From Nostoc carneum NIES-2107 (GTDB lineage: Bacteria > Cyanobacteriota > Cyanobacteriia > Cyanobacteriales > Nostocaceae), in NCBI GenBank assembly GCA_002368155.1, contig AP018180.1, positions 124,001 to 188,000 on the forward strand: a DNA stretch of 64,000 nt. The letters are read 5' to 3'. Numbering within the stretch: the first letter of the stretch is position 1; every line of letters begins with the position of its first letter. Shown piece after piece: positions 2,019 to 59,363 of this stretch. The position numbers were made by a program, and so were the translations under genes. A model generated the notes under the pieces. It made no database searches, had not been told where the DNA came from, and saw only the letters and a list, made by a program, of their open reading frames with translations.

Positions 2019-3356
2019 TTATCTTTGCAAAGCTGGTTCTTTGCTAACTTGCGCCGCAGGTTGCGCGACAGATTTTTCCAAACTAGACACTAAAGCTGGT
2101 ACTAAATCTGGAACTACAGGCTGTTCTAACAGTTGGGTGTAAAGTTCACTCAGCTGAGATGCAACACCATCCCAACTAAACTTGTTGATCACACGTTCCC
2201 TAGCAGCTTTCCCTAACTGTTCTCGCCATTCGGGATTCATCAGAATGCGGTCAATCGCATCTGTAAAGGCTCGTACGTCTCGAGGTGGCGCTAATATCCC
2301 AGTTTTTTCGGAAACTACAGTAAATTGTAATCCTCCCACATCGCTGGCGATGACTGGTGTACCGCTAGCCATAGCTTCAATTGCTACGAGTCCAAAGGGT
2401 TCGTAGTGGCTAGGAACAACGCAAACATCAGCCGCAGCGTAGTAAGTAGGTAGGACAGTTTGACAGAGGCGACCGGGTAGGGTGGTCATGTCGTTCATAC
2501 CCAGTTCATTGATAATGCCTTCAATGCGATCGCGTTCTATACCGTCGCTGTTACCTGGGGTGCTACCACCGCCAATAATCAATTGCAGATTTTCCGAACC
2601 ACGTAATTTTGAGGCTCCAACGGCACGAACTACGGTTTCTATACCTTTACGAGGGTCAAACCGTCCAACGTACAATACTACTTTCGCATCTGATGCAATT
2701 CCTAACTTTTCTCGCGCTGCTTCTCTATCTATAGAGCCAAATCGCCGAATATCTGTACCGCAGGGAATGATATCAATATTACCTTTGGTGGAAACGAGCG
2801 ATCGCATATGTTGCTTTTCTTGGGGACTCGTCGCCACAATTGTTTCTGCTGTCTCTAATACTTCTTTTTCTACTGCTAAACGTTTACTAGCAATTGCGGG
2901 AATATTGTCTATGGTGTTGTACTTTACAGCTCCTAAAGAGTGGTATGTATGAACCTGTTTGCTTCCTTGGATTTTCTTTAATTGCATCCCCACCCAGCTA
3001 GAAAGCCAGTAGTTGGTATGAACTAAGTTATAGGTAATACCGTTCTCTTGCTGGAATTGGCGGAACTTCTCAATAAATTCTGGTAAATAAACAAAAAGAT
3101 TATCTCTTGGCACAAACTCTAAAGGCCCAGCTTGAAAGCGAATGGTGCGACAGTTAGGACTGTGCTGCACAATTGTCTCTTGCTCCGCATTCACTTGGCG
3201 GGTAAACATATCAACCTGCCATCCTAGCCGCGCTAGTGCTTCACCTACGTTGCGGACGTAAACATTCTGACCGCCGGCTTCTTCCTTCCCTATTTCAATC
3301 GCGGGGTCTCCGTGGACTGAAATTAAAGCGATGCGTTGTTCCGTGGTAGCGTTCAT
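2019..3356 (-). CDS. GT4 glycosyltransferase, sucrose-phosphate-synthase-like
   Basis: A 445-residue GT-B fold glycosyltransferase of family GT4. The N-terminus has the donor/acceptor loop of the sucrose synthase/SPS group (ISVHGDP, then GKEEAGGQNVYV). The C-terminal domain has YVGRFDPRKGI and the E-x7-E signature (EPFGLVAIEAMASGTPV) that binds the nucleotide-sugar donor. Cyanobacterial SPS proteins of this size consist of the glucosyltransferase domain alone, without the phosphatase domain of plant enzymes. Sucrose-6-phosphate synthesis is therefore the best guess, relevant to heterocyst carbon supply and salt stress. Another GT4 acceptor cannot be excluded. The last 40 residues are a low-complexity Ala/Pro/Val tail. 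It is transcribed alone, with 880 bases of non-coding DNA upstream. Confidence 0.75.
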   Translation of the reverse strand: MNATTEQRIALISVHGDPAIEIGKEEAGGQNVYVRNVGEALARLGWQVDMFTRQVNAEQETIVQHSPNCRTIRFQAGPLEFVPRDNLFVYLPEFIEKFRQFQQENGITYNLVHTNYWLSSWVGMQLKKIQGSKQVHTYHSLGAVKYNTIDNIPAIASKRLAVEKEVLETAETIVATSPQEKQHMRSLVSTKGNIDIIPCGTDIRRFGSIDREAAREKLGIASDAKVVLYVGRFDPRKGIETVVRAVGASKLRGSENLQLIIGGGSTPGNSDGIERDRIEGIINELGMNDMTTLPGRLCQTVLPTYYAAADVCVVPSHYEPFGLVAIEAMASGTPVIASDVGGLQFTVVSEKTGILAPPRDVRAFTDAIDRILMNPEWREQLGKAARERVINKFSWDGVASQLSELYTQLLEQPVVPDLVPALVSSLEKSVAQPAAQVSKEPALQR

Positions 3357-17976: not shown

Positions 17977-18122
17977 AAGTGTAATTGTTTGCTCTTTAGT
18001 TAACTTAACTTAATTTTTTTTCAAGATTGGTGAGTCTTTTCATCTTAGAACAACGATGCACGCGATCAAGTCGTAAATCGCGAACTACCTGCGATCGGGT
18101 ACGAGGAATTGGGAAGCAGTAG

Positions 18123-18236
18123 TACTGTACGTTCGCTTATTTTTGAAGTGTGAGAGGAATTAACGCCTTACTGTTAAAGGAAACAATACGATTTTGGATC
18201 TCCTAAAACCATCACCGTGTAATACTTGGGAAAAGG
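18123..18236. repeat. Left terminal inverted repeat of the IS1634-like element
   Basis: It matches the reverse complement of 20740-20853 at about 106 of 114 positions. The inner end includes one copy of the CCGTGTAATAC palindrome half, so the repeat carries a possible protein-binding site as well as the transposase-recognised tip. Confidence 0.88.
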
Positions 18237-18402
18237 AGAACGAGCTTTACCATGTATTACATGGTAAAAGAAATTGCGACTTTGCGTGTATTACAGGGAT
18301 GAAAGAAATATATTGAGAGACTGTTACCGGAAGTTAAGCTCTTCAGTGTAATACATGGAAGAGTAGCAATATTCAAAGTTCAATTTACGGTGTCTTACAC
18401 GG
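18213..18402. repeat. Left array of 15-bp palindromes (CCRTGTAATACAYGG)
   Basis: Five sites lie downstream of the transposase stop: 18213-18229, 18246-18268 (a perfect 23-bp palindrome centred on CCATGTATTACATGG), 18284-18298, 18343-18359 and 18387-18402. Spacing is irregular, roughly 30-60 bases. They have the size and symmetry of a dimeric or tetrameric repressor operator. Confidence 0.7.
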
Positions 18403-18480
18403 AAATTGCTAATATTGAAATGGGACTTCAATTGTGTGTATCCTCCTTCAGGAGTGGTACAGGTAATTGAGTAAGATGAA

Positions 18481-20187
18481 TTATGTCGAGCGCACCACTG
18501 AATCTATCTGATAAAGGGATTCAGGCATTTTCATTAAAGAAAGAATTTGTTTTTGAAGCGCGTTAATTGGTGTGATGAAGATGGTAGAATCAGGTAAAAA
18601 ATAAAGAGTTAAATTACAAAAAGCCTTGAGCATTTGTTCAGCAGATGGGCGAGCAGTTTTTCGCTTTGGATTACCGTCATAAAGACCTGCCAAAGATTGT
18701 TGGGTTTGCTCAAGAGCCAGCCGTACTACAAACTCCATTAGAGTAAATACACGCAAAGCTATGTTCAACAGGAACATTAAGCCAGTGATTCGGTCAGTAT
18801 TTTGAAAGTAAATGGGTAGGGCTGGCAAAGAACCCCTTTTAAAACGGTGAAAACCTCGCTCTAAAAGCCATTCATCCCGATAATACATCACAGCAAGTGG
18901 TAAACTCATCTGGCTACTATCGGCATTAGTAACATACAATCGCCACCCTGCCAAAGTTTCTGCCTCCTGAATTGCAGTATCTATCTTCTGGATATGAAGT
19001 TGAAGACAAATATCTGTCAATTCCTCTGTGGTCGAGTTTTTTGATGGTCGTCCCCGTCCGAGATGACGAGTTTTTTTAGTGATCTGTTCTGTAATCATGG
19101 TTGAGAAAAAATTTTTGACACGATAGCGCTGGAGAATGTTTTCTACTTTATGGGTGAGTAGCTCCCGATCTGAGCCTGGCTTGTTAGCTAAACTTTGGAG
19201 AGCGGTTTCAGCAGTCAAGATGCGTTGCTGTTGTCCACGTATCATTGATGCGGCAAGGCTTTGGGAGTAAACTACTAAGTAGCGTTCTAGCCAACGCACC
19301 CATTTGTTGGTTTGTTTGTTGAACCAAAACTTACCTAACTCCACTTCAAAACCTTTTCCCACCGCAGGTTCTTCTTCATCTTGTCGTGGTAAACGAATGG
19401 GCACAATTTCCGCTGGTGGGTTGAGAACCCATTGCTGAAGATATTGAGGGTGTTGCCCACTCATGGCTACAGGAACGCAGTAAATACCCCTAGAAGCGGC
19501 GATTTGAGCGCGAGTTGCAATCGACCCAGCTTTACAATCAGCGATGAAGACAAACTTTTTATGTCCAATCACTTGTGCTATTTTTTGCCAAGTGGGGAAA
19601 TATAATGGGTCGTCAGCTCCATTACCTTCAAGGGTTGTGCTGACTAATGGCATTCCCATTGGGTCAAGGGTTGCCAATAATTGACGGTATTGCAACAAAT
19701 CTGGGCGTTTGTCCTTGGAATAGCCATAACGTAATATATTTTCTTCTGGAGAATCTCCCTGTTGATGATTCACGCTAAAACTAGTCGTATCGGTTCGTGC
19801 CACTTGTGTGGGCAATTCGTAGGCGCGAATCAGATTTTGTCCTAACTTGACCTCTATTTCCTGCGTTGCTTGTGTTTGCTTACCTAACTCTTCGACTACC
19901 CTTGCCAATCTGTCATCACTGGTATCTTTTTCTCCTATCGACCACCCTGTACTTAACTCTAAAATCCTTCGATGTGCCTTTACCCATGATTCCACTGCAC
20001 ACAACCGATGGTCTGATTGAGTAATTATGTATGTCAGTAACAATACACTCAATTGACCATAACTCATGCCTTTGTGGTTTCCGTGTGGTTTTTTGAGTTT
20101 TTGGTCAATACATTTAGCTATCCCCATCTGAACAAGCCATTCCACGATGACGGGAATATCGTCAATCCGCTCAGAACTTATGTCCAC
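18481..20187 (-). CDS. IS1634-family DDE transposase
   Basis: A 568-residue transposase. Its N-terminus (DDIPVIVEWLVQMGIAKCIDQ) is the DUF4277-type helical domain typical of the cyanobacterial IS1634/IS4-like group. Catalytic acids can be assigned as Asp in VARTDTTSF (about residue 137), Asp in FIADCKAGS (about 217) and Glu in the late motif YRDEWLLERGFHRFKRG (about 440). This motif is the Y-R-E-K signature of the IS4 superfamily. Length and motifs are intact. It reads toward the left end of the element and lies 36 bases downstream of the accessory gene, suggesting one transcript driven from the right-hand palindrome region. Confidence 0.93.
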   Translation of the reverse strand: MDISSERIDDIPVIVEWLVQMGIAKCIDQKLKKPHGNHKGMSYGQLSVLLLTYIITQSDHRLCAVESWVKAHRRILELSTGWSIGEKDTSDDRLARVVEELGKQTQATQEIEVKLGQNLIRAYELPTQVARTDTTSFSVNHQQGDSPEENILRYGYSKDKRPDLLQYRQLLATLDPMGMPLVSTTLEGNGADDPLYFPTWQKIAQVIGHKKFVFIADCKAGSIATRAQIAASRGIYCVPVAMSGQHPQYLQQWVLNPPAEIVPIRLPRQDEEEPAVGKGFEVELGKFWFNKQTNKWVRWLERYLVVYSQSLAASMIRGQQQRILTAETALQSLANKPGSDRELLTHKVENILQRYRVKNFFSTMITEQITKKTRHLGRGRPSKNSTTEELTDICLQLHIQKIDTAIQEAETLAGWRLYVTNADSSQMSLPLAVMYYRDEWLLERGFHRFKRGSLPALPIYFQNTDRITGLMFLLNIALRVFTLMEFVVRLALEQTQQSLAGLYDGNPKRKTARPSAEQMLKAFCNLTLYFLPDSTIFITPINALQKQILSLMKMPESLYQIDSVVRST

Positions 20188-20223
20188 TGTTTTCCCCGCT
20201 TACTGATACAAAACAGCGAATTC

Positions 20224-20619
20224 CTACTGTTGTGTATACTCGCTATTTAGTACCACAATAAAATGATTGAGGGCTTTGAGTGCTGCTTTGTAGCCCGGTG
20301 ATTGCTTACCTAACTTCAACTCCAATATTACTTGGTTACGTAAACTTTCGAGTGTTGCCACCTTTAGAGGCATGGTCGCAACTTCAACAACACTAGTTTT
20401 GGCTTTATGTGCCAACTTTTTTTCCCGTGTAATACTTGGATGAGCATTCCTTCTAATCACCTGTTCAACGTAATCAGCTCTAGTCATACCCAAGCATTCG
20501 GCAGCGATCCCCAAAGCCTTCCAGGTTTCATCCGTTAATCTTAAAGAGCGCACTTGACGATAATCATCGTCTTTGAGGGCGAACTTCCCTTGAATATCCC
20601 GCTTTAACATTCGCCTCAT
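20224..20619 (-). CDS. Ribbon-helix-helix-like accessory protein of the IS
   Basis: 131 residues from the chosen ATG at 20619. An upstream TTG at 20649 and an ATG at 20610, preceded by GGATGAGG, are alternatives. Residues 10-50 (RQVRSLRLTDETWKALGIAAECLGMTRADYVEQVI) have the strand-helix-helix pattern of Arc/CopG-type DNA-binding proteins; the tail is basic and then helical. It lies within the inverted repeats of the IS, upstream of the transposase with a 36-base gap. A palindrome (20619-20634) overlaps its start and another lies inside it (20424-20440). Autorepression, or repression of the transposase, through these sites is inferred. IS1634 members as I know them usually carry only the transposase, so this gene is unusual. 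Confidence 0.65.
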   Translation of the reverse strand: MRRMLKRDIQGKFALKDDDYRQVRSLRLTDETWKALGIAAECLGMTRADYVEQVIRRNAHPSITREKKLAHKAKTSVVEVATMPLKVATLESLRNQVILELKLGKQSPGYKAALKALNHFIVVLNSEYTQQ

Positions 20620-20764
20620 CCGTGTATTACATCGTAAGTTTAACCCCAAATTAGTGAAGTTTAAAGTGTAATATTCAGTATTACAGATGAGATGTTAATG
20701 AGCCATAGCTTCCATGTAATACATGGAAAGGGCTTTTTTCCTTTTTCCATGTATTACACGGTGA
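20424..20764. repeat. Right array of 15-bp palindromes
   Basis: Sites lie at 20424-20440 (inside the accessory gene), 20619-20634 (over its start), 20664-20687 (two half-overlapping copies), 20710-20728 (perfect, TTCCATGTAATACATGGAA) and 20745-20764. They share the sequence of the left array. The four upstream of the accessory gene lie where its promoter must be. Confidence 0.7.
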
Positions 20765-20853
20765 TGCTTTTAGGATATCCAAAATCGTATTGTTTCCTTT
20801 AACAGTAAGGCATTAATTCCTCTCACCCTTTAAAAATGAGCGAACGTACAGTA
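20740..20853. repeat. Right terminal inverted repeat of the IS1634-like element
   Basis: It is the inverted copy of 18123-18236 and ends in ...CGAACGTACAGTA. Its outer tip is followed directly by GTAG, which also precedes the left tip. Confidence 0.88.
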
Positions 20854-20899
20854 GTAGTTCCACACACAAATATTGACAGGTGTAGATTGGGGAAAGGGT

Positions 20900-20972: not shown

Positions 20973-21680
20973 TTAATTCTGATGGGTACACGCCAGAGCG
21001 ATCGCACAATCACACATTGGCTGTTGAAGATTTTTAATTTCGTCAGATTCCTGTGTTTTTGGATATAATTTTTGCAACTTGACACGAGCATCATCATTTG
21101 TAAACCGCCAGGTAATAGTTGCTTTTTCTTGATTTCTTGTCTGCTCCCAAGCAGCGATTTCAGATTTTAAAATTTTCTGATTTGGGATGCGTCGATTTAA
21201 ACATTGGCGAGAAAGAACTGACAATTCAATTTCTGCCATATTCAACCAACTACCATGTTTAGGAGTATAATGAAACTCTAGTTTTTTCAAAATTCTTCTA
21301 GCTTCTTCGGGATGAAAAGCTTGGTATAAAGCAGATGGCGTATGAGTATTTAGGTTGTCCATAATAATCCTAATTAACTCAGCTTTTGGATAATGAATGT
21401 CTACCAAATCTTTCATACAATGAGCAAAATCTACCGCAGTTCTTCTATCTGTAACTTTAATGTGTCGCCAACCTTTTGTTGGTTCTATAAACGTGAATAA
21501 ATTACAATTGCCCAAGCGCTCATACTCGTAATCAACGCGTCTTGCTTGTCCTGGTTTTGCCGGTATGGGAACTTTTGTATCACCAAGTAATTGTACCGGA
21601 CGCTCGTCAAAACAAACTCTCGGACGTTTTGGATCATCTGTTTGAGCATATAAATCTAAGACATCTTCCATTCGCCACAC
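20973..21680 (-). CDS. IS630 transposase, DDE part (orfB)
   Basis: The catalytic half of an IS630 transposase. The first Asp is in VCFDERPVQLLG, the second in IRIIMDNLNTHTP and the Glu in PKHGSWLNMAEIELS; all three are present. The ATG at 21680 is probably not the real start. The open frame continues upstream (WLVEQWCIPTVSPEFV) to the A8 run at 21739-21746, where it meets the orfA frame. The natural product is then a fused protein of about 380 residues made by -1 slippage, as known for several IS630 members. Confidence 0.9.
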   Translation of the reverse strand: MWRMEDVLDLYAQTDDPKRPRVCFDERPVQLLGDTKVPIPAKPGQARRVDYEYERLGNCNLFTFIEPTKGWRHIKVTDRRTAVDFAHCMKDLVDIHYPKAELIRIIMDNLNTHTPSALYQAFHPEEARRILKKLEFHYTPKHGSWLNMAEIELSVLSRQCLNRRIPNQKILKSEIAAWEQTRNQEKATITWRFTNDDARVKLQKLYPKTQESDEIKNLQQPMCDCAIALACTHQN

Positions 21681-21718
21681 GAACTCCGGACTGACTGTTG
21701 GAATACACCATTGCTCTA

Positions 21719-22159
21719 CTAGCCACGGCTTGATTTCGTTTTTTTTAAAGTTCGACGTACAGTTTCATCGCTAATATTATCTACAATTTCAAGTTGTACT
21801 AATTTATTAGCTAGTAATTCCATTGTCCAACATTCTCGCCCTGAAGGTGGATTACTACATGCGGTAGCAACTAAAAAAGCCTCTGCTGTCCCATTTAACT
21901 TTCTTACTTTACCTGGACGGGGTTTTTCATTTAAGGCTGACTCCAATCCTGACGATACAAATTTTTTCCGAATTCGCTCTATAGTTGCTACACTCACACC
22001 TATTATGTTGGCTATCTCTTCATCTTTATATCCAGCAGATGACATTAATAGTATCTGCACCCGTTTTAGTTTTCTTGCCTGAATTTTTCCTTTTTTAGTA
22101 ATTTGTTCAAGTTGTTCTTTATCCTCAATGGTTAAGTTGACTTGATGTTTGATAGCCAT
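21719..22159 (-). CDS. IS630 transposase, helix-turn-helix part (orfA)
   Basis: A 146-residue DNA-binding part. Two helix-turn-helix units are visible: KDEEIANIIGVSVATIERIRKKF near residues 55-80, and the paired-like region ending ISDEtVRRTLKK near 130. It recognises the inverted repeats. Normal translation ends at TAG 21719-21721, shortly after the A8 run. A -1 shift there opens the DDE frame. Starts at ATG 22159, inside the right inverted-repeat flank. Confidence 0.88.
   Translation of the reverse strand: MAIKHQVNLTIEDKEQLEQITKKGKIQARKLKRVQILLMSSAGYKDEEIANIIGVSVATIERIRKKFVSSGLESALNEKPRPGKVRKLNGTAEAFLVATACSNPPSGRECWTMELLANKLVQLEIVDNISDETVRRTLKKTKSSRG
21739..21746 (-). other. A8 slippery site for -1 frameshift in IS630
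   Basis: On the coding strand the run reads TTA AAA AAA ACG in the orfA frame and provides A-AAA-AAA for tandem -1 slippage. Slipping gives ...LKKNEIKPWLV, joining the two transposase parts. Transcriptional slippage on A8 would have the same result. No strong stimulatory hairpin is obvious in the next 30 bases. Confidence 0.7.
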
Positions 22160-24018: not shown

Positions 24019-24039
24019 CCCCGAATTTCTAATTCGGGG
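24019..24039. terminator. Right-end hairpin of the tnpB element / hemB terminator
   Basis: A perfect 9-bp stem around TCT. On the plus strand it is followed by ATTCTTG, so it may end the hemB transcript. On the minus strand it should form the 3' end of the omega RNA scaffold. Confidence 0.6.
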
Positions 24040-25240
24040 ATTCTTGCTTCACAGGGATTCCAACGAATTTACCCTCAGCAAGCATCTTGACCGTATGCCC
24101 TACGGCTGCAAGTCCTCTTATCAGAATTACCTGTGCGGCTGCTACATCTCTATCGGTTGTATAGCCGCAATTTGAACAAACATGAGTACGTTGTGATAAC
24201 TCTTTAGTACCTGTCTCGACACCACAGTTAGGGCAAATTTGGCTAGTTTTACGGCTGTCTACTTTCTGGAAATAGACACCACGCTTAAAACAAGTTTGCT
24301 CTAAGATGTTGAAGAATTGACCAAACCCAGCATCTAAACAATGCTTACCCAACATCCCACGGGATAGTCCAACCAAGTTTAAATCCTCGACAAACACCAT
24401 TCCGGTATCGTCGCAGATTTGGTGAGATAATTTTCTGTGCCAGTCTTGACGACAGTTAGCAACGTACTCATGTAGTTTCGCCACTTTCTTTTGAGCTTTG
24501 TGCCAATTTTTCGAGCCAATACGTTTTTTTGAGACACGCTGTTGCAGTAATTTCAGCTTGCGTTCGGCATCTCCAAAAAACCTTGGACGCTTGACGGTTA
24601 GCCCGTTAGAAGTGGCAATAAAACTTGTTAACCCTACATCAATTCCTACTCCTTCCCCGTGTGGCAGACTTTGAGGTACAGATACATCCCATTGAACAGT
24701 TAGCATCACATACCAACCAGAAACACGCTTCACCACACGAGATTGCTTGACTACGCCACTGTCAGGTATTCCCCTTGATTGTCGGAATTTAACCCATCCA
24801 ATCACAGGCAAATTAACCATCCCTGGTTTAAGTCTTTCACCTTGCATTTGCGGAAAGACAAAAGACCGCATTCGTCCCGATTTTTTGAATCGGGGGAAAC
24901 CGTGATTTCTCTCCCACATAGCCACAAATGCAACTTCTAGACGCTTTAATGTTTGCTGCAAAACTTGAGACTGTACTTTTTTAAGCTCAGGAAACTCTTT
25001 TTTGGCAGCAGTTAACGCTTTGCACTGGCTGGCGTAGGTTGGGCGGGGTGTGTCGGCAGGGATAATATATTCGTGCTTAAGTGAACAAGCGTTGATCTGA
25101 CAACTACGTGATAAATACCAGTCCTTGCGTTCAGCCAAAGCATAGTTATAGACACGACGATTAATTTCTAGCCAGTCTTCAAATATTTGGCTTTGTGCAT
25201 GGGTGGGCTTTAACTTAAATTCGTATGTCAGGTTAAACAC
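24029..25240 (-). CDS. tnpB: TnpB RNA-guided nuclease
   Basis: A 403-residue TnpB, ancestor-type of Cas12. The RuvC residues are intact: Asp in GIDVGLTSFIATSNG (about 198), Glu in FVEDLNLVGLSRG (about 282) and Asp in TDRDVAAAQVILIRGL (near 376). The zinc ribbon has all four cysteines (CPNCGVETG, then HVCSNCGYTTD). The N-terminal helical/WED part includes FNLTYEFKLKPTHAQ and the basic KVQSQVLQQTLKRL. TnpB uses an RNA from its own 3' end to cut the donor site left by transposition. With no TnpA here it must rely on a relative elsewhere or persist as a stand-alone nuclease. Intactness suggests recent activity or selection. Confidence 0.93.
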   Translation of the reverse strand: MFNLTYEFKLKPTHAQSQIFEDWLEINRRVYNYALAERKDWYLSRSCQINACSLKHEYIIPADTPRPTYASQCKALTAAKKEFPELKKVQSQVLQQTLKRLEVAFVAMWERNHGFPRFKKSGRMRSFVFPQMQGERLKPGMVNLPVIGWVKFRQSRGIPDSGVVKQSRVVKRVSGWYVMLTVQWDVSVPQSLPHGEGVGIDVGLTSFIATSNGLTVKRPRFFGDAERKLKLLQQRVSKKRIGSKNWHKAQKKVAKLHEYVANCRQDWHRKLSHQICDDTGMVFVEDLNLVGLSRGMLGKHCLDAGFGQFFNILEQTCFKRGVYFQKVDSRKTSQICPNCGVETGTKELSQRTHVCSNCGYTTDRDVAAAQVILIRGLAAVGHTVKMLAEGKFVGIPVKQESPN

Positions 25241-31145: not shown

Positions 31146-31613
31146 ATGAACTATCCTCAAATTCAATTTAGCGATCGCAAGTCTGAAATTGATCTAGAAC
31201 AACTGCAACAGCTATTTAATATCTGCGCCTTTTGGGCGAGAGAACGTAGTATTGAAGATTTGAGTATAGCGATTAGCAACAGCGAACCAGTAATTTCTGT
31301 ATGTGATGGAAACCGACTCGTTGGCTTTGCTCGCGCCACTTCCGATGGCATTTATCGCGCCACAATTTGGGATGTTGTCATTCATCCAGACTATCGTGGT
31401 ACAGGATTAGGCAGCAAATTAGTAGAAACAGTCTTGAGTCATCCTCGCATGAGGGTTGAGCGTGTCTATCTCATGACTACTCACCAGCAAGGTTTTTACG
31501 AAAAGATTGGTTTTCAGCGCAATACAACTACCACTATGGTGTTATATAACCAAGCTAACCTTGAGCCTCTACCGGCTGAGGAAATTCAGCTTCAGGAATT
31601 ACGAGGGGGATAG
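31146..31613 (+). CDS. GNAT-family N-acetyltransferase
   Basis: 155 residues from the ATG at 31146; an in-frame GTG at 31137 is less likely. The GNAT acetyl-CoA site is clear: VIHPDYRGTGLGSKLVETVL (R/Q-x-x-G-x-G/A), after the beta-4 strand [19 protein letters not shown], and a C-terminal GFYEKIGFQRN. The GFARATSD...ATIWDVV stretch is shared with the Ycf52-like protein at 38022-38549, so the two are related, but this one lacks the N-terminal extension. The acceptor amine is unknown. Its 3' end overlaps the convergent kinase gene by 59 bases. Confidence 0.9.
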   Translation: MNYPQIQFSDRKSEIDLEQLQQLFNICAFWARERSIEDLSIAISNSEPVISVCDGNRLVGFARATSDGIYRATIWDVVIHPDYRGTGLGSKLVETVLSHPRMRVERVYLMTTHQQGFYEKIGFQRNTTTTMVLYNQANLEPLPAEEIQLQELRGG

Positions 31614-32089
31614 ATACCTGCAGCCTAGTGATTTCGGGAATTTCTGGTTGATTGGTTGGAAATGGCACAATTTCCAACTTTCCTCCCATCTCTTCCAACA
31701 AGGTCTGATTGAGTAATAGCCTCATTCCTGGAGTTAATGTAGAGTTTTCTGTTTTGTCCAAAATAGCTTTGTCTGGCGAGTCCAAAAAATCTATCGATTT
31801 AATAAAATCTATAGACTCGCTCCCAGGTAGAGTATGAATTGGCACATCTAGCCAAATATATACAGAATTCTTATTAGGTGAAAGACTACTACAAATGGAG
31901 ATACCGCCTTCTTCCATTTGAGAAATGCTGGTGTCTACTAAGCTAATTAAAACTTGGCGTAGCCACCGAGGATCTGCCAAAACATAAATTCCTGGATCTG
32001 GTGGCGACATTTGTAACTTAAAGTTACGATTCGCCGCCAGCATATAAGTTAATTTATCAACTTCCTGTAAAACTTCTTTAAGTGATAGA
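31555..32089 (-). pseudogene. Sensor histidine kinase, C-terminal fragment
   Basis: The 3' part of a kinase gene split by the insertion at 32090-33590. It encodes the end of the dimerisation region and an HATPase-like domain (EVLQEVDKLTYMLAANRNFKLQ, VLADPRWLRQVLISLV). The nucleotide-binding boxes are weak: the N-box Asn is Asp/Thr (LVDTSI) and no DxGxG box is evident, so catalysis may have been degenerate already. Removing the IS and one copy of the 10-bp duplication restores an unbroken frame (PLSL-KEVLQ) of about 315 residues. Upstream of 32090 the open frame continues into the IS by chance only. The end overlaps the GNAT gene. Confidence 0.85.
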
Positions 32090-32125
32090 CTGGAGTTTAG
32101 ACTAAATGGGAGAGATGAAAGAGAA

Positions 32126-32159
32126 AAAGGGGATGTCTGATTGAAGACAGTCCCCCTTT
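32126..32159. terminator. Stem-loop inside the left end of the IS
   Basis: AAAGGGGATGTCT pairs with AGACAGTCCCCCTTT around a six-base loop, with one or two bulges. It lies upstream of the transposase start on its strand. It could insulate the transposase from read-through or hide its ribosome-binding site in long transcripts, as known for IS10 and IS50. Confidence 0.45.
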
Positions 32160-32201
32160 CGGCAGAAGCTAAGAGAGAATCACCTACTCTTATCTGCCAA
32201 T

Positions 32202-33509
32202 ATGAAACGTGCCAGACTCGAAGAATTTCGTCAAGCAGCCTATACGCATCTAGGCAAAGCACATGATGCAACATTTGAACTAACAGATGCGATACTGTTG
32301 ACCCGTAATGTCTACAGTCTGGCAGATTTATCTTTATCGCCAGTGTTTAGACGCAAATGGCCGAGTATCTATGAAGCGATACAAGATACCAAACCAGACC
32401 GCGAGAAATTAATGGAGTTATATATCAAGCAAATACCAACAGAAAAACGCATATTGTTGGCAGGAGATCATACAGCTTGGTCACGCCCAGATGCGGTGAC
32501 ACTCAAAGAACGGACAATAGAACACAGTAGCACAGAGATCGCGGGAAATAAACCGATTACGATTGGGCAGGGATATAGTACTATAGCTTGGATACCAGAG
32601 GATTCAGGAAGTTGGGCACTACCGCTGAGGCATGAACGGATTACCAGTTGGGACAATCCGATTGAGAAAGCAGTTGAACAACTCAAAAAGGTATGTGAAT
32701 CAATGTCTGTTCGACCAATTTCGCTTTGGGACAGTGAATATGGTTGTGCGCCTTTTGTGTTAAAGACAGCTAGTATAAAAGCCGATATCTTAGTTAGACT
32801 ACGTTCAAATCTGTGTCTATGGGGCGCACCACCTGCTTACTCTGGCAAGGGTCGTCCTCGCAAGCATGGTGCTCAATTTAAACTCAATGAACCCTCAACC
32901 TGGGGCGAAGTGGCATCTGTGCTGGAAGTAAATGACCCAAAATTGGGACGAGTTAAAGTCAGTCTGTGGGAAGATTTGCATTTTCGCAAAGCTGCTACAC
33001 GCCCCATGACGCTACTGAGGGTGGAACGTCTTGATCTTGATGGCAATTTGAGAGTATTAAGACCCTTGTGGTTAGCTTGGGTTGGGGAACAAATGCCACC
33101 ATTGGATGAAGTTTGGCGATTGTACTTGCGCCGATTCACGATTGACCATTGGTATCGCTTTCTCAAGCAACGCTTACATTGGACAGTACCAAAATTCAGT
33201 ACTCCAGAACAATGTGAACATTGGAGTGACTTAATGCCGTTAATGACCTGGGAGTTATGGTTAGCTCGTGATATAGTTGCTGATAATCCTCTTCCCTGGC
33301 AAAAGTCAATGGATAAATTGACCCCAGGACGAGTTGCTCAAGCTATGGGTGGAGTTTTCGCTGCGATTGGTACTCCTACCTCTCCACCCAAACCTCGTGG
33401 AAAGTCCCTTGGGTGGACACCAGGTAAAGCCCGTAACCGGAAAATACGATATCCAATTGTTAAAAAGACTGCTTCTAAACCACGGAAAGAGGAACAAAAA
33501 TCTGCTTAA
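32202..33509 (+). CDS. DDE transposase (IS4-superfamily-like)
   Basis: A 435-residue transposase. The first Asp is in LLAGDHTAWSRPDA (about residue 89) and the second probably in SLWDSEYGCAPFV (about 183). The Glu region may be the WLARDIV/LYLRRFTIDHWYRFLKQRLHW stretch, which has the Y/R...H-W-Y-R-F-K pattern seen in the IS701/IS4-like DDE_5 group rather than a classic YREK. The C-terminus is basic (KPRGKSLGWTPGKARNRKIR). It is complete and runs antisense to the kinase it interrupts. The exact IS family is unsure. Confidence 0.85.
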   Translation: MKRARLEEFRQAAYTHLGKAHDATFELTDAILLTRNVYSLADLSLSPVFRRKWPSIYEAIQDTKPDREKLMELYIKQIPTEKRILLAGDHTAWSRPDAVTLKERTIEHSSTEIAGNKPITIGQGYSTIAWIPEDSGSWALPLRHERITSWDNPIEKAVEQLKKVCESMSVRPISLWDSEYGCAPFVLKTASIKADILVRLRSNLCLWGAPPAYSGKGRPRKHGAQFKLNEPSTWGEVASVLEVNDPKLGRVKVSLWEDLHFRKAATRPMTLLRVERLDLDGNLRVLRPLWLAWVGEQMPPLDEVWRLYLRRFTIDHWYRFLKQRLHWTVPKFSTPEQCEHWSDLMPLMTWELWLARDIVADNPLPWQKSMDKLTPGRVAQAMGGVFAAIGTPTSPPKPRGKSLGWTPGKARNRKIRYPIVKKTASKPRKEEQKSA

Positions 33510-54768: not shown

Positions 54769-56694
54769 TTACCTTCTTTGTAAGTACTTGAGAATGCCAT
54801 TAGCGATCGCTTCTGCCATCCGGTTTTGGTATTCTGGGCTACCTAGTCTCGGATTGTCTTCTCGACCAGTCATATAGCCAGTTTCCACCAAAATTGAAGG
54901 CATAGAACTCTTTCTGAGGACATAGAATCGAGCTTTACGCGTGCCTCGGTCTTTGATAGTGCCGATATTCTGGAGAATCGACTTGCGGACAGTTTCGGCT
55001 AGACCGTAACCGCTGTCGTAATAATATACTTCTAATCCATTGACATCAGGGCGACGATCAACTGAGTTAGCATGAATGCTGACAAATAAAGTCGCATTTA
55101 CTCGCTCGGCGATATCTACCCGTCCCTGAAGTTCTACAAAGAAGTCAGCATCCCTAGTCAACACTACTTGTACGCCATTTTGCTGCAAAATCGAGGCTAC
55201 TCGTTTGCCAATGGGTAATACCACATCTTTTTCTAACAGTCCTCCTAAGCCAGGTGCACCAGAATCCTTACCACCATGTCCCGGGTCAATAACTACTAAC
55301 AATTTGCCTCTAGGAACTGTAGGACGTGGTGTTGGCTGCGGTATAGTTCGGGGATTATCTGCAGGGTCTGGTAATTGCCCTTGGGTGGGTGGTAGGGGTG
55401 GTAAAGCTACAGGGGGTATTCTGGGCGATGTAATTGCTCGAGAACGTTGTAATTGTAACGCTACTAACTGATTGCCAATTTGATTAAGTTCGCCAATTTG
55501 TACGCCTGCTGCTGGTTGAACATAGACAACTACTGTATTTGGTTCTTGGGGTTGTAGTTTCACTCGCAGAATCGGGCTACTGGCGTTTAAGGCTGGCCCG
55601 CTCACCCTAGGAGCTAACTTAGCATTAGGAATGGTAATGCGGAACAAACCAGAAGATCTATCCCAACCACCTGTAGCAGATAAAGCTTGGTCACCACGAA
55701 TTAGTAACTGCGTACCATTTCCAGCTAATTCTACAGATTGAATTGTCGCTGGAGAGTTGGTACTGGGGATGACAACATTAGCATTATTATTCCCAGCAGG
55801 TAATCTCACCCCAGCACTATTGGGTAAAAGTACAAAGCCGCCCACACTGCTATTACTGGCTCGCCAATCGGGACTATTGCTATCTACCCGCATGGTCATC
55901 CGTACTACAGGCGGTTGAGATTGTAATTGGCTAAATTGAATGCGATTCACGCCATAGCGGTTAATTGAGACATCTTGCTGCTCAAATGTGGGTGCCAAAG
56001 CAGCCCCAGCAATATCAATATTAATTGTCTTTCTGTCTTCAGTGCGGTTGACCTGAATCCTGGGGTTACCGCCACTGGTACGGATGAAAAAGCCATCACC
56101 AGTGGGTTGTAACTTTTGAATTTGAGTTGCGCCTGAATTAGAGTTAACCGCAGTGCGATTATCGATGGGGGTAACCGGGGCGGTTCTCACTACATTGTAA
56201 ATATTTCTTGGCGGTAATGAGGTGGCAGGTGGTTTAGCAGGAGTGATAGTTCGAGGAACTGGTGTTTGTTGCTCTGGAAGATTATTAGACGCAGACACCT
56301 GCTCCATTTTGGGATTAGGTAACTTTACTGACCACCGACTGGCAGTGATACCTGTAAATTTTATTTGTTGGGGGTCTATGGTGTAACCTGGGTTCAGTTC
56401 GACCACAATGCGAGTTGTTTCTGGGTCAAACTGTCCCACACGCACTGAACGAATTCCGCCGCCTACTGGTTGGGTTACCTGGGGACGACCAAATACGGTT
56501 TGTGGTAAATCAATTACTAAACGGGTAGGGTTAAAAATGAGTTGTGCCTTTGGTTGTACACCACCGGCGGTGTTGATTTCTAACTGATTTTGACTGGCAT
56601 CAAAACGCCAAGATTCTAGTCTCGCTGCAAAAGCCGGCGACGACAGTATGAAGATGGTTCCAAAAGTACCGGGTAGTAACCAGTGTAATTTCAC
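54769..56694 (-). CDS. amiC2: AMIN-domain N-acetylmuramoyl-L-alanine amidase
   Basis: 641 residues. Signal peptide (LLPGTFGTIFILSSPAFAA), AMIN domain about 24-115 (LESWRFDASQNQLEI, VQPKAQLIFNPTRLVIDLPQ), two more AMIN-like beta blocks about 195-290 and 315-420, a Pro-rich linker, and the Amidase_3 domain about 450-640. Zinc ligands are His in VIDPGHGGKDSGA, Glu in LLEKDVVLP and His in VSIHANSVD; the catalytic Glu is in ILVETGYMTG. All present. Anabaena AmiC2/HcwA drills the septal nanopores needed for cell-cell exchange and differentiation. Name by position downstream of the paralogue. Confidence 0.9.
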   Translation of the reverse strand: MKLHWLLPGTFGTIFILSSPAFAARLESWRFDASQNQLEINTAGGVQPKAQLIFNPTRLVIDLPQTVFGRPQVTQPVGGGIRSVRVGQFDPETTRIVVELNPGYTIDPQQIKFTGITASRWSVKLPNPKMEQVSASNNLPEQQTPVPRTITPAKPPATSLPPRNIYNVVRTAPVTPIDNRTAVNSNSGATQIQKLQPTGDGFFIRTSGGNPRIQVNRTEDRKTINIDIAGAALAPTFEQQDVSINRYGVNRIQFSQLQSQPPVVRMTMRVDSNSPDWRASNSSVGGFVLLPNSAGVRLPAGNNNANVVIPSTNSPATIQSVELAGNGTQLLIRGDQALSATGGWDRSSGLFRITIPNAKLAPRVSGPALNASSPILRVKLQPQEPNTVVVYVQPAAGVQIGELNQIGNQLVALQLQRSRAITSPRIPPVALPPLPPTQGQLPDPADNPRTIPQPTPRPTVPRGKLLVVIDPGHGGKDSGAPGLGGLLEKDVVLPIGKRVASILQQNGVQVVLTRDADFFVELQGRVDIAERVNATLFVSIHANSVDRRPDVNGLEVYYYDSGYGLAETVRKSILQNIGTIKDRGTRKARFYVLRKSSMPSILVETGYMTGREDNPRLGSPEYQNRMAEAIANGILKYLQRR

Positions 56695-57542: not shown

Positions 57543-59363
57543 TTATCTTTGTTTGAGATACTGGAGGATACCGCGAGCGATCGCTTCCGCCATTTGATTC
57601 TGATAATTTGAGCTTTGGAGGTTGGCAACATCCACTCGACCAGTTAAATAGCCAGTTTCTACCAAAATAGAAGGCATGGAACTTTTTCTGAGGACATAAA
57701 ACCTAGCTCGTCGCACTCCTCGGTCTCTGACATTTAAACTTTGGAGAATGTTGGTATGAACAATGCGAGCTAAACTGAGACCACTGTCGTAATAATACGT
57801 TTCCAATCCATTCACATCAGGACGACCTGCACCTGCTGAATTAGCATGAATACTGACAAAGACATCAGCTCTTGCTCTGGCTGCCATCGCAACTCGTCCT
57901 TCCAAGCTGACAAAATAGTCAGAATTACGGCTCATAATTACTTGCACGCCATTTTGCTGCAATATCTGTGCCACTCTCATGCCAATGGGGAGGATGATAT
58001 CCTTCTCACGCACTCCGCCAATCCCAATGGCCCCTGGGTCTTTACCGCCATGTCCGGGGTCAATTAGCACTACCATTCGCCCATTAGGAATTGTGGAACC
58101 TGAACCAGGTAGGGGAAGATTGCTATCTGGCAGATCTGAAGGCGATTGCGGTGGTAAATCGAGAGGTGGTCTAACTTGAGAAAAGCGTTGTAGTTGTAGT
58201 GCTATCAGCTGACTACCAACTTGGTTAAGTTCGCCAATTTGCACTCCGGATGCTGGCTGCACAAAGACAACTACTGTATTTGGTTCTTGGGGTTGGAGTC
58301 TTACCCGCAAAACGGAACTAGTAGCATCTAAAGCTGGCCCTTTAACTCTGGGAGATACTTTAGCATTGGGGATTGTAATGCGAAACAAACCAGAAGATCT
58401 GTCCCAACCACCTGTTGCAGATACAGCTTGGTCAGCACGAATCAGCAATTGTGTGCCGTTCCCTGCTAATTCTACAGATTGAATATTGGCTGGGGAGTTG
58501 GTAGAAGATGTTACAGGCGGCCGATTATCATCTTCGCTTGATGCCACGCCACTATTATTGGGCAAAACAACTAACTCACCAACCCTGCTACTCATAGCTC
58601 GCCAATCAGGGCTATTACTCTCTACCCGCATTGTCATCCGCACTACAGGCGGTTGATTTTGTAATTGCCTGAATTGAATCCGATTTACGCCATAGCGGTT
58701 AATTAAGATATCCTGTTGGTCAAACCTTGGTGATAAAGCAGCGCCGGAGATATCGATATTAATTAACTTTTTATCCTCAGTCCGATTTACTTCAATCTTC
58801 GGGTTACCACCACTAGTCAAGATAAAAAATCCATCACCCGTGACTCGTAATCTCTCAATTTGAGTCACTCCGGCTGTGGCGTTCACCAACGGGGGTAACT
58901 CAGGTTTGGATGTAACATCTGTTGCAGGTGCATTGTAAATATTGCGATCGCCAGATGGTATTTTCACCACTTCTGGGTCTGGTAATTTTACCAGCCAACG
59001 GCTGTCATTAATCGGCGTAAATTGCACCCGTTGGGGGTCTATGGTATAGCCTGGGTTGATTTCGACTACAATGCGGGTTGTTTCTTGGTCAAACTGTCCC
59101 ACACGAATTGAGCGAACTGCTCCGCCAAAATTTTGCGTGACTTGGGGACGGCCAAATACAGTTTGTGGTAGATCAATTACTAGACGAGTCGGGTTGAAAA
59201 GTAATTGTGCCTTCGGTTGCACAGCACCCATCGTATTGATTTCTAGCTGGTTTTGATTGGCATCAAAACGCCAAGAATCTAGCCTCGCTGCCAACGTTGG
59301 TGATGCTAGCAACAAAACAGTTCCTAACGTACCAGATATTAACCAATTTAGATTCAAAGTCAT
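57543..59363 (-). CDS. amiC1: AMIN-domain N-acetylmuramoyl-L-alanine amidase, paralogue
   Basis: 606 residues, the same layout as its neighbour: signal peptide (LISGTLGTVLLLASPTLAA), AMIN domain with the same LDSWRFDANQNQLEI and QPKAQLLFNPTRLVIDLPQ segments, later beta blocks, and Amidase_3 with DPGHGGKDPGA, GGVREKDIILP, VSIHANSAG and ILVETGYLTG. The linker before the catalytic domain is shorter. The high similarity of the N- and C-terminal parts points to tandem duplication; the linkers have diverged most. In Anabaena the first of the pair is AmiC1. It is transcribed toward the second gene. Confidence 0.9.
   Translation of the reverse strand: MTLNLNWLISGTLGTVLLLASPTLAARLDSWRFDANQNQLEINTMGAVQPKAQLLFNPTRLVIDLPQTVFGRPQVTQNFGGAVRSIRVGQFDQETTRIVVEINPGYTIDPQRVQFTPINDSRWLVKLPDPEVVKIPSGDRNIYNAPATDVTSKPELPPLVNATAGVTQIERLRVTGDGFFILTSGGNPKIEVNRTEDKKLINIDISGAALSPRFDQQDILINRYGVNRIQFRQLQNQPPVVRMTMRVESNSPDWRAMSSRVGELVVLPNNSGVASSEDDNRPPVTSSTNSPANIQSVELAGNGTQLLIRADQAVSATGGWDRSSGLFRITIPNAKVSPRVKGPALDATSSVLRVRLQPQEPNTVVVFVQPASGVQIGELNQVGSQLIALQLQRFSQVRPPLDLPPQSPSDLPDSNLPLPGSGSTIPNGRMVVLIDPGHGGKDPGAIGIGGVREKDIILPIGMRVAQILQQNGVQVIMSRNSDYFVSLEGRVAMAARARADVFVSIHANSAGAGRPDVNGLETYYYDSGLSLARIVHTNILQSLNVRDRGVRRARFYVLRKSSMPSILVETGYLTGRVDVANLQSSNYQNQMAEAIARGILQYLKQR

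Follow-up and report, generated by a model that had tools for sequence, protein, structure and literature searches.

Insertion sequences are usually thought to be self-limited by weak promoters, frameshifts or antisense RNA. Copy-number repressors of CopG type, known from rolling-circle plasmids, are small ribbon-helix-helix (RHH) autorepressors with a palindromic operator. According to excerpts of PMC9938897, cyanobacterial type V-K CRISPR-associated transposons carry the RHH proteins Arc_1 and Arc_2 and the MerR-type regulator CvkR; a repressor role was studied for CvkR and suggested for the Arcs, which are 53–72 aa long and are encoded upstream of cas12k, in reverse. In Tn3 transposons, according to the excerpts of PMC7157771, antitoxins that bind DNA, among them RHH or ParD types, are encoded next to the transposase and are proposed to regulate. 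Members of the IS1634 family are 1500–2000 bp long, make duplications of 5–6 bp and have ends starting with C; their terminal consensus is C-----YT, and the ends are described as poorly conserved (PMC2266710, likewise in excerpt).

The element described here lies in a window of 64,000 nt, the whole stretch of Nostoc carneum NIES-2107 DNA that was analysed, and carries an RHH gene beside an IS1634-family transposase gene. An RHH homologue of its protein on a small plasmid with a rep gene is reminiscent of CopG, although the target of the window protein would be the transposase. As far as the excerpts go, the RHH and MerR regulators of the CRISPR-associated transposons are the nearest precedent, with the Tn3 toxin-antitoxin genes next. 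The window gene resembles the Arcs in being an RHH-type regulator on a cyanobacterial transposon, but the description of the Arcs (PMC9938897, in excerpt) sets it apart from them, as it encodes 131 aa and lies on the same strand as the IS1634 transposase, 36 bp upstream; its family (about 115–177 aa) has an additional C-terminal domain and occurs in IS elements beside the transposase, with several transposase families. Like the Tn3 modules (PMC7157771, in excerpt) it places a predicted DNA-binding protein beside a transposase, but no toxin partner was seen in the window element. The transposase family, the 5–6 bp duplications and the ends starting with C are those of the IS1634 family as excerpted from PMC2266710, whereas the length of 2727 bp, the second gene and the inverted ends of 140 bp are not. 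Searches of open-licence papers gave no description of an RHH gene in IS1634 or IS1182 elements, and the excerpts of the three papers describe neither one regulator common to several transposase families nor an RHH gene in an IS.

The two-gene element and its copies

The element ends with CTGTACG..CGTACAG at 18125 and 20851. Its main features, in window coordinates, are:

18120–18124, no strand: target duplication TAGTA, left copy
18125–20851, no strand: complete IS1634-family element with second gene, 2727 bp (ends in 13/15 copies; empty sites in G387 and G388)
18125–18264, plus strand: terminal inverted repeat of about 140 bp on the transposase 3' side, with 89% complementarity to its partner (repeat search)
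18481–20187, minus strand: IS1634-family DDE transposase, 568 aa, GTG start (NCBIfam NF033559, 290 bits; Pfam DDE_Tnp_1 and DUF4277)
20224–20619, minus strand: RHH protein gene, 131 aa from ATG, 36 bp upstream of the transposase ORF on the same strand
20712–20851, minus strand: terminal inverted repeat on the RHH (promoter) side (repeat search)
20852–20856, no strand: target duplication TAGTA, right copy

The score of the transposase is above the cut-off of the NCBIfam IS1634 model (100 bits), and the 5-bp duplication fits the value of the family. The element end CTGTACGT has C1 and T8 of the consensus and a G at position 7. To our knowledge, IS1634 elements carry one gene, and the window element departs from the family in both length and gene number. 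The transposase is a member of the IS1634 family; the whole element is a variant. An earlier note on this DNA had set the borders at 18123 and 20853; the element is real, but each border was 2 bp off. The inverted repeats of 114 bp given there were too short, as the raw repeat search revealed arms of 145 nt (89%), corresponding to 140 bp inside the element ends.

The genome of 9.36 Mb in four contigs has 18 transposase matches, of which 15 are near-identical and three are remote (23–25% identity). The RHH gene is present with all 15 near-identical copies and absent from the three remote matches. The claim of an intact second gene upstream of the transposase is confirmed. Both ends are kept in 13 of the 15 copies. 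Over the 2725 bp compared, twelve of these 13, the window copy included, are free of mismatches, and the other differs at one position. In the copies L026 and L027, roughly the outermost 50 bp on the RHH side are replaced, a length inferred from 38 and 35 mismatches. Exact target duplications of 5–7 bp border eight of the 15. On contig C4, certain copies have a flank in common, as after duplication or recombination. The clean empty sites proposed as a check in the earlier note were found in two of seven other genomes of the genus (G388 and G387), where the joined flanks align across the junction; in the remaining ones only the left flank matched. Given the identity of the copies, the duplications and the empty sites, the window element is a recently active, complete unit.

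Several other ORFs of the window were labelled by reading the sequence. An IS630-like transposase in two frames adjoins the IS at 20973–22159, and a TnpB-like ORF is located at 24029–25240. A transposase-like and a kinase-like ORF (32202–33509 and 31555–32274) overlap on opposite strands, possibly through an insertion that interrupted the kinase. Adjacent similar amidase-like ORFs at 54769–56694 and 57543–59363 are likely a tandem duplication.

The RHH protein and its relatives

The mechanical ORF of the RHH gene has 141 aa from TTG at 20649, and the family alignment makes the ATG at 20610 the likely start. In the AlphaFold model (mean pLDDT 67.9), an N-terminal RHH part is followed by a low-confidence linker (residues 61–83) and a C-terminal helical hairpin. 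The N-terminal 57 residues modelled alone have mean pLDDT of 79.6, with a strand at 21–26 and helices at 27–39 and 44–55 (block pLDDT 78–94), that is, in strand-helix-helix order. The best Foldseek match of this domain model is an antitoxin (E 0.5, probability 0.96, 1.5 Å over 36 columns). The top six are antitoxins and NikA, all known RHH proteins, at E 0.5–1.2, none of them reaching E 0.001. Chains of Arc, MatP, PutA and FitA are lower in the ranking, mixed with unrelated chains from rank 7. No cut-off of the curated RHH models in Pfam and NCBIfam was reached, the best being TacA1 with 13.9–14.4 bits (cut-off 21), and an RHH profile run against PDB sequences gave a single weak, irrelevant match. 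As a structure prediction, the RHH fold of the 131-aa protein is well supported; the Arc/CopG-like strand-helix-helix pattern noticed earlier reappears in both AlphaFold models and agrees with the six first Foldseek matches. The gene has dN/dS of 0.15–0.40 in 13 pairs, which indicates purifying selection. According to the ORF list, the element has no toxin-like second gene and the transposase is the sole gene after RHH, which is not the arrangement of a type II antitoxin.

Scanning genome contigs with the RHH alignment yielded 97 relatives. The analysis covers the best 80 of them, several being copies within a single genome. All records of these 80 are labelled as Cyanobacteria except L111, labelled as a Candidatus Gracilibacteria MAG. 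The neighbour is an IS1182 transposase at 37 loci, an IS1634 transposase at 14 and TnsAB/TnsC at eight. Sixteen loci are near an IS end only, an assignment that allows 2 mismatches in 12–15 bp, so that a few may be due to chance, and five (L097, L098, L099, L133, and L154) were left without an assigned element. The IS1182 assignment was verified for three proteins (318–341 bits, cut-off 270), TnsAB was identified by its TnsA, rve and Mu C-terminal domains, and TnsC by AAA and TniB. The Westiellopsis copies L084, L085, L086, L088, and L089 hold stretches of N and were left out of the judgement of intactness. The gene had been proposed as a dedicated regulator; the regulatory part of this proposal is well supported by the palindromes described below, but with IS1182 at 37, IS1634 at 14 and TnsAB/TnsC at eight of the 80 loci the gene is not dedicated to one element.

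Many cyanobacterial members of the IS1182 family carry the same RHH-palindrome module as the window element, although their transposase family is different and their ends are of GAYACTGTTGGCGAA type. Three gene orders occur in them: RHH follows the transposase, or the two genes are convergent or divergent. Both ends of this type (≤3 mismatches) were found in 23 of the 25 RHH-bearing IS1182 elements checked, and six of the 23 (L078, L105, L130, L139, L157, and L195) have a duplication of 6–7 bp. In the tree of RHH proteins (57 rows), the eight IS1634 proteins form one clade (100/99), and mapping the seven context labels ('orphan' is one of them) takes 14 changes, the minimum being six. From this clade and these changes, exchange of the gene between transposase families looks rare and change of arrangement less rare.

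The palindrome and its linkage to the gene

The RHH gene is accompanied by the 15-bp palindrome CCRTGTAWTACAYGG, with copies at both element ends in the raw repeat output. The sites of the window element, all without strand, are:

18215–18229: palindrome CCGTGTAATACTTGG, 91 bp from the transposase-side end (1 mismatch)
18250–18264: palindrome CCATGTATTACATGG, 126 bp from the same end (exact match)
18284–18298: weaker palindrome GCGTGTATTACAGGG (2 mismatches)
18344–18358: palindrome CAGTGTAATACATGG (1 mismatch)
18388–18402: weaker palindrome CGGTGTCTTACACGG (2 mismatches)
20425–20439: palindrome inside the RHH coding sequence, encoding PSITR of the linker (1 mismatch)
20620–20634: palindrome CCGTGTATTACATCG, just upstream of the RHH start (1 mismatch)
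20712–20726: palindrome CCATGTAATACATGG, 126 bp from the RHH-side end (exact match)
20747–20761: palindrome CCATGTATTACACGG, 91 bp from the RHH-side end (exact match)

All five IS1634 elements checked have mirror-image sites at distances of about 91 and 126 bp from either end, apart from one site at 123. The window element contains 6 promoter-like matches, no more than the 6.1 expected by chance. The genome contains 109 matches to CCRTGTAWTACAYGG at ≤1 mismatch, and the reversed pattern has 2. All 109 are in or at RHH-carrying transposons, seven in each of the 15 IS copies and four at L016, a TnsAB/TnsC-associated RHH gene that is the only other close RHH homologue in this genome. A regulator of host genes, spread by transposons, could be imagined from a predicted DNA-binding protein in up to 15 copies, but with no site at ≤1 mismatch away from the RHH-carrying transposons of this genome such a role is very improbable.

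A site (≤2 mismatches) was found in the 150 bp upstream of RHH at 72 of 74 loci with 68 distinct upstream sequences, and in none of 1270 control windows more than 2.9 kb away; rows and loci are related, and the counts are not independent. Six of the 80 loci had no 150 bp upstream and were excluded, and the misses are L114 and L135. Chance co-occurrence is ruled out by these counts and by the 109 of 109 in the Nostoc genome. Adjacent upstream sites are 33–36 or 43–47 bp apart in 45 of 59 cases and never 37–42 bp, which gives two classes about one helical turn apart. At L047:1049–2205 (G296), seven palindrome-like sites (≤2 mismatches) precede the gene of a 238-aa RHH protein whose C-terminus is different; three pairs of these sites are 45 bp apart.

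In 22 IS1182 elements, hand-picked for near-complete transposases, a site precedes RHH in every case, and 15 elements also have one in the 250 bp before the transposase (0.0009 in shuffled transposase upstream regions). Four of the 15 have divergent genes with a common region; of the 18 non-divergent elements, 11 thus have a site at a transposase promoter distinct from that of RHH. No site was found within this distance upstream of the transposase in seven of the 22, nor upstream of TnsAB in L102 and L110, the two with more than 300 bp upstream. The sharpest test of the linkage is the comparison for absence in IS1182 loci. Among ten loci from a search of 386 genomes (IS1182 transposase query, E ≤ 1e-80; in most genomes with more than three candidates, no more than three were scored), four with RHH and one with a remnant carry 2–6 sites, and none of the five without RHH carries a palindrome.

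Sites are also written into the gene itself. The motif P[SC][IN]T[RWQPL] occurs 80 times in the linkers of 45 of the 57 distinct proteins, one to three times per protein. Thr is encoded there by ACA in 78/80, Arg by CGG in 55/59 and Ser by AGT in 54/55, as compared with 37%, 18%, and 21% for the same codons across all codons of the RHH genes; the rows are related and not independent, and the bias is still far beyond background. The codons follow the palindrome and not the usual choice of the gene; the linker sites are conserved at the DNA level. Operators within a repressor's own coding sequence would be an unusual feature in itself, and searches of open-licence papers gave no earlier description of it.

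Optional pairing and the role of the gene

Relatives without RHH occur in both IS families. The IS1634 elements L182 and L181 have the same kind of ends and intact transposases 78–82% identical to that of the window element. L182 (78%) has no sites and an exact duplication TTCTTA. L181 has two sites left at the far end and groups with the RHH-bearing partial transposase L091 (95/92), which suggests loss of RHH. L064 (53% identity) has one site and no RHH in the 218 bp upstream examined, and L066 (G278) has kept IS1634 ends and palindromes and lacks RHH and a part of the transposase. Among RHH-less IS1182 elements, L198, L200, and L202 have exact duplications, which is three of the four with both ends (six of 23 in RHH-bearing ones). 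Transposase frames are open in L198 and L199 and broken or split in L200, L201, and L202; L201 is without a proper end pair. An obligatory gene pair is rejected by the relatives with open frames (IS1634 L181 and L182, IS1182 L198 and L199). The exact duplications of RHH-less elements show that transposition can do without the gene. RHH and transposase form a unit that recurs but is not required, and this makes an obligatory transposition cofactor unlikely. The earlier note had offered a cofactor as the alternative to a regulator and had named as the refuting case relatives with the same ends lacking the second gene; L182 and L181 are such relatives, and they speak against the cofactor, if obligatory.

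Unrelated transposons combine the gene with the palindromes at similar positions, and at the level of sequence the palindromes support a regulatory role of the protein well. The RHH gene is probably an autorepressor keeping its own transposon quiet. Its protein would bind the 15-bp palindromes as cooperative oligomers, and the sites upstream of RHH would shut down the RHH-transposase transcription unit; in IS1182 elements, the repressor would also act on the transposase promoter. A newly arrived element would give a burst of transposase, falling as the repressor accumulates and copies multiply. Fifteen recent copies in one genome are, however, unlike what tight repression alone predicts. The IS1182 transposases (7/22) and the TnsAB genes of L102 and L110 without an upstream site also count against autorepression, as do the promoter-like matches at chance frequency and a protein for which Pfam reaches no RHH cut-off.

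The mirror-image sites at 91 and 126 bp from both ends, together with the intragenic sites, may allow the repressor to bridge or cover the ends via its C-terminal helical domain, and this would limit transposition further. Such fixed-distance sites in five IS1634 elements, near-mirror sites in the IS1182 elements L138 and L139, and a modelled hairpin that could bridge sites would also suit a mainly architectural cofactor, which binds both ends and aids assembly of the transposition complex, with autoregulation secondary. This is unlikely, as relatives with neither gene nor sites have exact duplications (L182; IS1182 L198, L200, and L202), and in RHH-bearing IS1182 elements no site is within 260 bp of either end in L130 and L134, or of one end in L103 and L104.

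On plasmids, all seven cyanobacterial records matching the L080 IS1182 transposase at at least 50% identity (H62–H66, H68, and H69), among 60 listed of 118 matches, have an adjoining RHH match, and all 22 plasmid records with an RHH match are cyanobacterial. The Planktothrix plasmid PLAM_p (L180, NZ_LO018306.1, 4522 bp) encodes an RHH homologue at 199–555 with a rep gene downstream, four palindromes at or in the RHH gene (115, 162, 322, and 548) and two more at 3333 and 3437 (≤2 mismatches). Homologue and rep gene together suggest a link to plasmid copy control. The same palindromes on this 4.5-kb plasmid, and the three different gene orders in IS1182 elements, would also be compatible with a self-controlled passenger, for example a gene that once served in plasmid copy control or as an antitoxin, which brings its operators along and leaves the transposon unaffected. 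Autoregulation alone explains the sites at RHH-adjacent promoters and those in the four divergent elements, but not the sites at distinct transposase promoters, found in 11 of the 18 IS1182 elements that are non-divergent, or those at both ends of five IS1634 elements. With no toxin-like partner in the ORF list of the element, and presence in three transposon kinds, which suggests benefit to the transposons, a passenger is likewise rather improbable.

Beyond autorepression in single elements, a portable copy-number controller can be proposed tentatively, with a little less than even confidence. One RHH repressor with its palindrome set would circulate among cyanobacterial IS1634, IS1182, and TnsAB/TnsC transposons and small Rep plasmids, with the operator copied into its own coding sequence, and elements of different families would silence each other in one cell because their operators are the same. 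If true, a repressor-operator module swappable across unrelated transposase families would be a different kind of copy-number control, and such a common module would predict cross-immunity between families. A mini-element of 643 bp with RHH only and a 7-bp duplication was found as one case in two records (L056 and L109), maybe from one strain; under the same proposal, such transposase-less elements would be mobile repressors.

Two further loci of the Nostoc genome were recorded. L169:6839–10780 (contig C4) is a TnsAB/TnsC/RHH remnant in which the TnsB end and the TnsC start are missing and the remainder forms one 1154-aa frame. At L017:1504–3201 (contig C1, about 5706441), the N-terminus of a PAS-rich sensor protein, in an open frame of 1764 aa, weakly matches RHH_1 (20.3 bits; cut-off 20.5).
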